This document shows positions 10,490-27,606 of a DNA stretch of 41,176 nucleotides, one piece after another. The stretch is from the NCBI GenBank assembly GCA_030066085.1, contig JASJCI010000002.1, positions 1 through 41,176 on the forward strand. The letters run 5' to 3'. The stretch comes from Gammaproteobacteria bacterium (GTDB taxonomy: Bacteria; Pseudomonadota; Gammaproteobacteria; GCA-001735895). The number at the start of each line of letters is the position of its first letter. Within the stretch, counting starts at the first letter, position 1. A program made the translations under genes and the position numbers. The notes under the pieces were generated by a model that saw nothing but the letters and a program-made list of their open reading frames with translations, made no database searches and was not told where the DNA came from.

Positions 10490-11188
10490 TCAGCAACCGG
10501 TTTCGGCCAGCGTCTGCTTGATCAGGGGGATCGTGATGCGCTGCTGGCGCGAAAGCGACGCGCCGTCGAGCCGATGCAGAATTGCCATCTGCGCATCGAG
10601 ACCGCGCGCATGGTGGGTCAGCAGGTACGAAAGCACTTCGGGCGACAGTTCCAGTCCGAGCAGCCGCGCACGCCGGGCGAGGATATCGCGGACGCTGTCC
10701 TCGTCGTGCCGCGGCAGCTCCAGCATCAGCCCCCACTGCAGGCGCGAGCGCAGGTCGTCGAGCGCCAGGTCGAGTCGGGACGGCCGCGTCGACAACGAAT
10801 ACAGCAGGCGAAGCCCGCCCGTGCGGCAGCGATTGATGACCCGGTAGAACACCGCTTCCCAGTCGGCGTGCCCGGCCAGCGCGTCCAGGTTGTCGACCGC
10901 AAGCAGTGCGCAGTCTTCGTAACCGTCGAAGGATTCCGCATCGAAACCGACCAGTTCGAGCGCATCGTAAACCTGCATACGAACACCCTGGTCGCGGGCA
11001 TGCCGGGCAGTTGCATTGAGCAGGTGCGTCTTGCCGCTGCCGCGCTCGCCGTACAGGCCCAGCTGACTTTCGCCGTTACCGGCCACCTGCTCGCGCAGGC
11101 TGGCGACGATCAGCCCGGCACCCTCGCCGAAAAAATTATCCAGGCTGAAATGCCGATCCAGCTGCAGGGGTAACGGGATCTGTTTGAT
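10490..11188 (-). CDS. hda: Hda, DnaA regulatory inactivator, with apparent ATC start
   Basis: A 232-residue DnaA-related AAA+ protein that, bound to the sliding clamp, promotes hydrolysis of DnaA-ATP and prevents re-initiation of replication. Visible are Walker A GERGSGKTH (about 47-55), Walker B LLAVDNLD, sensor 1 and arginine-finger region, and the C-terminal RQQRITIPLIKQTL typical of Hda. The N-terminus read upstream continues with family-like sequence KQIPLPLQLDRHFSLDNFF, which contains the clamp-binding motif QIPLPL. The first ATG/GTG/TTG codon in frame is a GTG at 11086, which would delete this motif. An ATC at 11188 has GGGAG seven bases upstream and matches the family start position. 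A stop codon (TAG) lies just before it. Confidence 0.88.
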   Translation of the reverse strand: MKQIPLPLQLDRHFSLDNFFGEGAGLIVASLREQVAGNGESQLGLYGERGSGKTHLLNATARHARDQGVRMQVYDALELVGFDAESFDGYEDCALLAVDNLDALAGHADWEAVFYRVINRCRTGGLRLLYSLSTRPSRLDLALDDLRSRLQWGLMLELPRHDEDSVRDILARRARLLGLELSPEVLSYLLTHHARGLDAQMAILHRLDGASLSRQQRITIPLIKQTLAETGC

Positions 11189-11191
11189 CTA

Positions 11192-12283
11192 TCAGCTCCC
11201 GCGGTCCACGTAGCTGTAGTTGAGAATGATCTGGTTTTCGCCCTGGGTACTGACGCGCGGAAAGTTCTCCTGTTCCAGCACTTCGCCGAACTCGATCAGC
11301 CGCTGCAGATCCTCCGGATCGTTGCGCAGCTGCAGTCGATAGGTAACCACGCCCTGGTCGATCGTCGCGACGCGCACGTTGTCGACCGCATTGAGCGAGT
11401 CCAGGTAGCGCTGCACCTTGATCACCTGCTCGATACCGTTCAGCGACGAAACGCTCATCAGCAAGGATTCCTCCACCCGTCGATGATCCTCGAGGGCAAA
11501 CTCCAGCGCGAGGACTTTTGCCAGGTGGCCGATAACCTGGTCGACCACCGCCTGCTTGGACGAGGCCTGGTGCTGCCAGCGAAACACCTGTTCGTCGAAG
11601 CGCACTTCCCAGTCACCCTGCCAGCCCTGCCCGCTGCGCCCGATGATCTGGCCGACCACCAACGCATCCGGCGCATAGCGCGCGGCCATCGACTGGATCT
11701 GGTCGATCTCGCGCGATACCACGTCACCGATACCAACCTGCGAGATGTCCTGCAGATCCATCAGCGGAAACAGCACCGGCACCGCGTAACGCGCCGCCGC
11801 CTGGTCCAGCGACTCGACCAGGTCAGGCGTACTGTCGTCCGATACCAGCCGGATGTTCTCGTTGACGTCGTAGGAAATCACCAGCAGGCTGCTGGGCCGC
11901 TCACGTCCCCAGATCGGAAAGTTATGTTCGCGCAACAGGCCTTCGATCAACTGCTGATCGAAATCGATGCGCAGGTAGAGCCGCCCGGCATCGAACTCGG
12001 CGTCGTCCGGTGACTTGCGGGTAATGTAGCGAAACTGCTTTACGTAGCGGGCGCTGCGCGCCAGCGGGCGCTCGAAGGCCGGACTGAGCAGGGGTCCGTC
12101 CGATCCACTGACCTTGATCACGACCTGGCGAAAGGCCTGGTTGAAGGATTCCAGCCGCAGGCTGGTTGTCTGGTCGGCCACCGGCAGTTCGACGGTGAAC
12201 AGGTCTTCGACGATCACCGCCTGCGCCGGCATCTGCCAGCCCAGGCACAGCAGCAGCCAGGGTAAAAACCGTTTTACGTTCAT
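11192..12283 (-). CDS. DUF2066-domain exported protein
   Basis: A 363-residue protein of the DUF2066 family (PF09839), conserved next to purM and hda in pseudomonads and relatives. A signal peptide (about residues 1-22, ending PAQA) is followed by the DUF2066 domain, with QAFRQVVIKVSG and the repeated beta/alpha pattern of the C-terminal half. It is likely periplasmic; the role is not established. The ATG at 12283 is chosen because it gives the signal peptide; a longer frame to 12367 would run into the purM start. Its TGA is followed in the same frame by TAG and then the hda ATC. Confidence 0.85.
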   Translation of the reverse strand: MNVKRFLPWLLLCLGWQMPAQAVIVEDLFTVELPVADQTTSLRLESFNQAFRQVVIKVSGSDGPLLSPAFERPLARSARYVKQFRYITRKSPDDAEFDAGRLYLRIDFDQQLIEGLLREHNFPIWGRERPSSLLVISYDVNENIRLVSDDSTPDLVESLDQAAARYAVPVLFPLMDLQDISQVGIGDVVSREIDQIQSMAARYAPDALVVGQIIGRSGQGWQGDWEVRFDEQVFRWQHQASSKQAVVDQVIGHLAKVLALEFALEDHRRVEESLLMSVSSLNGIEQVIKVQRYLDSLNAVDNVRVATIDQGVVTYRLQLRNDPEDLQRLIEFGEVLEQENFPRVSTQGENQIILNYSYVDRGS

Positions 12284-12365
12284 GATCAGGGGGCTCGCTA
12301 ACCCGGACAATTGGCGACGAGGCGTGTAAAATACCACAGGCTTTGTATTTCCTGAACAGACAAAC

Positions 12366-13403
12366 ATGACTGCTGAACCCTCCCTGAGCTATCGCGAGGC
12401 AGGCGTCGATATCGACGCGGGCAACGAACTGGTTGAGCGGATCAAGCCGGCGATACGTTCTACCCGACGCGAGGGCAGTATCGGCGGCATAGGCGGTTTC
12501 GGCGGCCTGTTCGAACTGCCGCTCGAGCGTTACCGGAATCCCCTGCTGGTCTCGGGCACCGATGGTGTCGGCACCAAGCTCAAGCTGGCGAGCGAACTCG
12601 GCCGGTTCGACGGCATCGGCATCGACCTGGTGGCCATGTGCGCCAACGATATCGCGGTGCTCGGCGCCGAGGCGCTGTTTTTCCTCGACTACTACGCCAC
12701 CGGCCAGCTGCAGCTCGACCAGGCACAGCAGGTGATCGAGGGTATCGCCGAGGGCTGCCGGCAGGCGGGCTGCGCACTGATCGGTGGCGAAACCGCGGAG
12801 ATGCCCGGCGTCTACGCGCCCGGCGATTTCGACCTCGCCGGCTTTTGCGTCGGGATCGTCGAGCGCGACCGGGTAATCGACGGCAGTTCGATTGGTCACG
12901 GCGACCGCCTGCTCGCGCTGGCCTCGTCCGGAGTGCATTCGAACGGCTTTTCACTGGTTCGCAAGATCGTCGAAATCAGCGGCGCCGATTTCGACCAGGC
13001 CTGTGGTGACGACAAGCTCGGGACAACCCTGATGATACCGACGCGGATATACGTCAAGACCCTGCTGGCGCTGGCGACGTCCTGCCCGCTCAAGGGCATC
13101 GTGCACGTCACTGGCGGCGGCCTGGTCGATAACCTGCCCCGTATACTGCCGGACAACTGCAGCGCTGCGATCGACCTGTCGAGCTGGCAATTCCCGGACG
13201 TGTTCGCCTGGCTGCAGCAGGCCGGCGGCATCGAACAGCAGGAAATGCTGCGCACCTTCAATTGTGGCGTCGGCATGGTCATCGCGGTCGCGCCCGACGT
13301 GGTCGACGATTGCCTGGCACGCCTGCGCGAGCTGGGGGAAACCGCCTGGCAAATCGGGCAAATCGTAGCGCGCGGCGACGATGCGGGCGTGGTATTCGGA
13401 TGA
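12366..13403 (+). CDS. purM: Phosphoribosylformylglycinamidine cyclo-ligase
   Basis: A 345-residue AIR synthetase, fifth step of purine biosynthesis: FGAM plus ATP gives AIR. Family motifs include the [20 protein letters not shown] start, [49 protein letters not shown] and [13 protein letters not shown]. The length is normal and the ATG at 12366 fits the family start. It is divergent from the DUF2066 gene (82-bp gap) and overlaps purN by the ATGA arrangement, so the two are translationally coupled. Confidence 0.98.
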
Positions 13404-26226: not shown

Positions 26227-27606
26227 ATGGCGATTAGCGTATTCGATCTGTTTTCCATCGGTATCGGGCCTTCGAGCTCGCATACCGTCGGGCCCATGCG
26301 CGCGGCCAACGGCTTCGCGCAAAAGCTCCGCGACGAGGGTTTGCTGCATCACGTCGCCGAGGTGCGTGCCGACCTTTACGGCTCGCTCGGCGCCACCGGC
26401 AAGGGCCACGGCAGCGACAAGGCGGTAATGCTCGGGCTGGAAGGCGAGCTGCCCGAATCGGTCGACACCGACAGCGTCGGCGACCGCCTGCAGCAAATCC
26501 GCGCTACGCGTCAGCTGCAGCTGCTGGGCGATCACCCCGTCGCGTTCGACGAAAAAAGCCACCTCGTCATGCACCGGCGCAAGAGCCTGCCGTTCCACTC
26601 CAACGGTATGACCTACACGGCCTTCGATGCCGATGGGGCCACGCTGTGCGAAGCCACCTATTACTCGGTTGGTGGTGGTTTCATCGTCGACGAGAGCGCC
26701 GCCGGCGCCGACCGGATCGTCGCGGACGATACGCCTCTGCCCTACCCGTTTCGCACCGCGGTCGATCTGCTGATCCACTGCGCCAATCACGACATGGCGA
26801 TCAGCGACGTGATGCTCGCCAACGAAAAGTGCTGGCGCAGCGAGGAAGAAATTCGCAGCGGCCTGCTCGAGATCTGGAAGGTCATGCGGACCTGCGTCAG
26901 GAACGGCTGCCGCAACGAGGGTATCCTGCCCGGCGGCATGAAAGTCAAACGCCGTGCCGCCGATCTCTACCGCAAGCTCAACAGCACGCCTGGCCTGACC
27001 TACAAGGACCCGCTGACCTCGCTCGACTGGGTCAACCTGTGGGCGCTCGCGGTCAACGAGGAAAATGCCGCTGGCGGGCGCGTGGTCACGGCACCGACCA
27101 ACGGCGCGGCCGGTATCATCCCCGCGGTGATGCACTACTACCAGCACTTCTTCCCCGCGGCCGACGACGACGGCATCGTGCGTTTCCTGCTGACCGCCGG
27201 CGCAATCGGTATCCTGTACAAGGAAAACGCGTCGATTTCCGGTGCCGAGGTCGGCTGCCAGGGTGAAGTCGGCAGCGCCTGTTCGATGGCCGCCGGTGCA
27301 CTTGCCGAGGTCATCGGCGGCACCCCGGAGCAGGTCGAAAACGCGGCCGAGATCGGTATGGAGCACAATCTCGGCCTGACCTGCGACCCGGTCGGCGGAC
27401 TGGTGCAGGTACCCTGTATCGAACGCAACGCAATGGCGTCGGTCAAGGCGATCAACGCCGCGCGTATCTCGCTGCGCGGCGACGGTCAGCACTTCGTATC
27501 GCTGGACAAGGTCATCAAGACCATGCGCGAGACCGGCGCCGACATGAAAACCAAGTACAAGGAAACCGCCCGCGGCGGGCTGGCGGTCAACATCATCGAA
27601 TGCTGA
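26227..27606 (+). CDS. sdaA: L-serine ammonia-lyase, iron-sulfur type
   Basis: A 459-residue single-chain L-serine dehydratase: serine to pyruvate plus ammonia, using a [4Fe-4S] cluster. N-terminal [24 protein letters not shown] and the cluster-binding cysteines in [16 protein letters not shown] and [16 protein letters not shown] are visible. It starts 152 bp after gcvP, so it may have its own promoter (no clear one seen) or be read through. Placed after gcvT-gcvP it would turn serine made from glycine into pyruvate. The next gene overlaps its end by 7 bp. Confidence 0.97.

Follow-up and report, generated by a model that had tools for sequence, protein, structure and literature searches.

A putative ATC start codon for hda, conserved as ATT or ATC in most of a gammaproteobacterial genus and suggestive of limited Hda synthesis

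The window analysed here, a stretch of 41,176 nucleotides from a gammaproteobacterial genome, carries on its minus strand the gene for Hda, which switches off the DNA-replication initiator DnaA. The gene lies immediately downstream of a gene of the DUF2066 family, and the features at the junction are the following:

11192..12367, minus strand: DUF2066 gene (Pfam PF09839, 191 bits), 5' of hda
11196..11200, minus strand: GGGAG, Shine-Dalgarno-like, 7 bases 5' of the ATC and within the last codons of the DUF2066 gene
11189..11194, minus strand: TGA TAG, of which TGA (11194-11192) is the stop of the DUF2066 gene and TAG (11191-11189) a second stop
11186..11188, minus strand: ATC, proposed start codon of hda, the sole codon at the family start position, with two in-frame stops before it
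10490..11188, minus strand: hda, DnaA regulatory inactivator, 232 aa if read from the ATC (TIGR03420; Pfam Hda_lid and Bac_DnaA)
11162..11185, minus strand: KQIPLPLQ, the conserved N-terminus that carries the clamp-binding motif, 5' of every canonical in-frame start
11084..11086, minus strand: GTG, the first canonical in-frame codon (ATG, GTG or TTG), 34 codons past the ATC and judged not to be a start

Along the minus strand the junction reads GAC CGC GGG AGC TGA TAG ATC AAA CAG ATC CCG TTA CCC CTG, in which both TGA and TAG stand in the hda frame immediately 5' of the ATC. A preliminary description of this DNA had placed a GGGAG seven bases ahead of the ATC and a stop codon just before it, both of which are confirmed in the minus-strand sequence, and had located the conserved Hda N-terminus, including QIPLPL, upstream of the first in-frame ATG, GTG or TTG, in agreement with our placing that first codon at GTG 11086. 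Read from the ATC, the protein scores 203.2 bits against TIGR03420, an NCBIfam equivalog profile with a curated cut-off of 194.8 bits, covers profile positions 1-225 of 226 with the alignment beginning at residue 3, and matches the Pfam Hda lid domain. It is the single full Hda match in the window genome; a second, weak match is a DnaA-like paralogue. Provided that translation begins at the ATC, the clamp-binding motif Q-[IL]-x-L-x-L is present as QIPLPL, one of the versions found in the family (QIALPL, QIPLPL and QLPLPL). The GGGAG is predicted to pair with the anti-Shine-Dalgarno sequence at -6.6 kcal/mol, and similar sites also precede the ATT of hda in relatives and the ATC of infC.

The GTDB genus of the window genome comprises 31 genomes, and the hda start region is readable in 29 of them. 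The start is ATT in 23, ATC in two and GTG in four, counts that are not independent because most of the ATT cases have one common ancestry. The preliminary description had proposed ATC 11188 as the start of Hda and had suggested looking for a non-ATG codon in close relatives; the ATT or ATC found at this position in 25 of the 29 genomes, together with the two stops directly before the codon in the window, lends the proposal good support. In 20 genus members the codons right after the ATT or ATC are AAA (AGA in one case) and CAR, and in five an ATT is followed by a Lys or Asn codon and two more codons before CAR. The ATC is shared by the window genome and G013 (JAHEKJ010000006.1), whose Hda is 67% identical. 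One member of the genus, G039 (20 contigs, 87% complete), gave no hda match at E 1e-20, which may reflect either gaps in the assembly or a true loss.

Outside the genus the picture is uniform. Two sister genera of the same family have ATG or GTG in 10 of 10 genomes, immediately ahead of or close to A-Q-[IL]-P, and ATT or ATC in none of the 10, and in a class-wide gammaproteobacterial sample all 130 other hda genes have an ATG, GTG or TTG at most 14 codons ahead of the point where the profile begins; the ATT/ATC start is therefore, in this sample of sequences, a property of this genus. In the tree, a 20-member clade has strong support (100/99), and G013 comes out as the sister of the window genome (100/96). 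In the sister clade within the tree genomes with GTG are intermingled with genomes with ATT, which implies either two losses of GTG or a single regain. In the four genomes with GTG (L023, L024, L038 and L039), a GGAG or GGGG lies some 13-14 bases before the GTG where measured by eye, a position better spaced for an ATT or ACT codon two codons upstream of it; these genomes possibly represent a transitional state.

The order DUF2066-hda is kept throughout the genus, with stop and start nearly abutting or overlapping, and from this arrangement the two genes are probably co-transcribed and, we infer, translationally coupled. In 23 genomes the ATT overlaps the upstream stop (A-ATT-AA, that is, AAT followed by TAA or TAG), with hda continuing as AAA, so that the stop codon partly dictates which base stands third in the start. 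The window genome (TGATAG-ATC) and G013 (GGC TAA TC; CTA-ATC, with only the A shared) have lost the overlap and kept the ATC: in these two the upstream stop does not constrain the third base of the start, and the codon is nevertheless ATC rather than ATG.

Start codons of the ATC and ATT kind are rare and are otherwise best known from infC, the gene for IF3. In this genus infC begins at ATC in 24 of 24 readable loci (23 genomes), the window genome included, and the start is preceded by GGGAG or GGAG:

C69:18145-18651 (L073): infC of the window genome, GGAGAGTCACCA ATC GCA GAC AAC AAA CAG

One draft genome, G018, holds two infC sequences (L071 and L082); the fragment L082 resembles the infC of G009 and is probably contamination. 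A general habit of starting genes at ATT or ATC is countered by pcnB, whose GTG start is conserved in the genus (L214-L225), in contrast to the ATT of E. coli, so that the lineage is not simply tolerant of such starts. When syntenic genes were scanned for conserved coding sequence ahead of the first canonical start, hda and a few others were flagged. One of the flagged stretches, before ATG 27600, falls within the gene ahead of it (26227-27606) and is most easily explained as a shadow of that gene; since the remaining flagged genes are uncurated, the scan yields no clean background rate.

Several accounts would place the start of Hda elsewhere or do without a start of its own. Translation from an internal canonical codon, here GTG 11086 as the first in frame, would yield a shortened Hda that lacks the clamp-binding motif, the part of the short N-terminus through which Hda engages the DNA-loaded clamp and acts in RIDA (PMC10380432). 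The stretch so skipped bears the mark of purifying selection, with a pN/pS of 0.11 over the first 16 codons from Q (20 genomes) and of 0.25 from Q to codon 34, and the first internal canonical codons of the relatives are scattered (25, 34, 35, 40, 55, 68 and others); on N-terminal conservation and selection together we reject GTG 11086 as the start, and we consider an internal start anywhere very improbable. Upstream codons are a point against the ATC, since about half of the ATT genomes have an in-frame GTG, TTG or ATG 2-11 codons upstream; these codons vary in place and arise from codons of the upstream gene (e.g., GTG from CGT GGA), and in 12 of the 25 genomes with ATT or ATC no ATG, GTG or TTG occurs from 30 codons upstream of the site to 5 downstream. 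Readthrough or frameshifting out of the DUF2066 gene could in principle join it to Hda, given that the stop touches or overlaps the start and that the two genes share a frame in the window genome. The frame of the DUF2066 stop relative to that of hda, however, takes three values (0 in the window genome, with its two stops, -1 in G013 and +1 in the others), which excludes a conserved frameshift fusion and makes neither frameshift fusion nor stop overlap alone sufficient to account for the codon. By eye, moreover, the DUF2066 N-terminus resembles a signal peptide (MNVKRFLPWLLLCLGWQMPAQA), whereas Hda is cytoplasmic, and a fusion is as improbable as an internal start. A sequencing or assembly error that hides an ATG or GTG deserves the least credence of all: the genome of the window is indeed a draft in 85 contigs, but independent assemblies of 24 other species have ATT or ATC at the site, so the ATC is not a misread base. 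The preliminary description had named a read error in this assembly, with ATG in the relatives, as what would overturn its proposal, and the relatives turn out to support the ATC start. Comparison between genomes places the start position of hda and establishes both its conservation within the genus and the purifying selection on the N-terminus.

A closer competitor accepts the ATT or ATC as real and regards it as merely tolerated, a start that shifted until it overlapped the upstream stop (AAT TAA) and was kept by drift, without regulation by IF3. In the 23 genomes in which ATT overlaps the stop an ATG would abolish that stop, and coupled re-initiation may be less demanding of the codon. In the window genome and G013, on the other hand, the stop no longer covers the codon, so that an ATG could arise, and ATC was retained; because the two genomes are sisters, this is one event only. 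The last Asn codon of DUF2066 also argues against mere tolerance, as it is invariantly AAT where GTG is absent: it is AAT in 23 of 23 ATT genomes, whereas two of the four GTG genomes have AAT and two AAC, the AAC placing ACT in the hda frame. At other positions in these genes AAT accounts for about 62% of Asn codons, which gives the invariant AAT a naive probability of ~5e-6, uncorrected for relatedness. We give mere tolerance roughly a one-in-three standing: a minority reading that has to be taken seriously.

The reading we prefer, and consider likely in both its parts together, is that hda begins at the ATC and that the weak start has a conserved role. The ATC at 11188, which initiator tRNA would be expected to read as Met, would then represent one variant of an ATT/ATC start that is genus-wide. 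Ribosomes finishing DUF2066 would terminate on the hda start or only a few bases away from it and would be positioned there by the GGGAG-like site in the last DUF2066 codons. Initiation on hda at AUC or AUU would be inefficient, as IF3 is expected to disfavour such codons; Hda output would thereby lie well below that of a gene with ATG and would be expected to increase when IF3 runs short, like that of infC. We infer the coupling, the low output, the sensitivity to IF3 and, more generally, control of Hda dosage at translation. Regulation by IF3 does not follow from a weak start, and that IF3 directly controls Hda in this genus, through the AUC/AUU start common to hda and infC, we hold to be rather doubtful, slightly more so than mere tolerance.

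Known systems offer partial parallels. IF3 represses the non-canonical start of infC (PMC5472188, PMC9410913), as well as that of Streptomyces sigR (PMC5472188). The preliminary description had connected ATC and ATT starts with IF3-dependent regulation, a link to which this repression and the ATC of infC in the genus give indirect support. Like hda in this genus, infC has a conserved ATT or ATC start (ATT in E. coli, ATC in Streptomyces); it differs in forming an autoregulatory loop, whereas hda lies outside the translation apparatus and its control by IF3 is hypothetical. The likeness to sigR, which starts at GTC, is of another kind: both encode dose-sensitive regulators with a non-canonical start conserved in the lineage, in a translationally coupled operon (PMC5472188). 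Codon, phylum and pathway differ, and the sigR case is proven experimentally whereas that of hda is proposed from sequence; with sigR as precedent, control of hda by IF3 is plausible by analogy. The ATT start of E. coli pcnB limits expression, according to the passage of PMC9410913 that cites Binns and Masters (2002), and so provides, unlike the conserved GTG of pcnB in this genus, an example of an inefficient codon limiting a dosage-sensitive protein, as we propose for hda. E. coli dnaA also has a weak GUG start, the change of which to AUG raises DnaA (PMC5835720), and loss of Hda leads to over-initiation (PMC5302844).

The nearest parallel is the same gene with another non-canonical start. 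In E. coli, the start of Hda has reportedly been traced by experiment to CUG. In the RefSeq annotation hda of K-12 begins at CTG (NP_416991.2), and this CTG is confirmed in the sequence (L113:2777); nearly every complete E. coli genome matches the 101 bases of this start region with an identity of at least 99%. There the codon is CTG rather than ATT or ATC, the lineage is another and uraA lies upstream, and because lineage and gene neighbourhood differ we take the CTG start to be of independent origin. A literature search outside the papers on E. coli Hda found no paper discussing the start codon of hda, and as far as we searched, the mechanism is known and its use on hda with ATT or ATC in this lineage undescribed.

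A start at ATC or ATT suggests that Hda is deliberately produced in small amounts, and the origin of weak hda starts on at least two occasions (CTG in E. coli, ATT or ATC here) indicates selection for low Hda. Very few non-canonical starts have been characterised, and genome annotation tends to overlook them; in much of this genus, the standard start codons would truncate Hda and lose its clamp-binding site. If IF3 is involved, control of replication would be tied to translation initiation: the level or fidelity of initiation would set the rate of DnaA inactivation and thereby link the state of the ribosome pool to the timing of replication.
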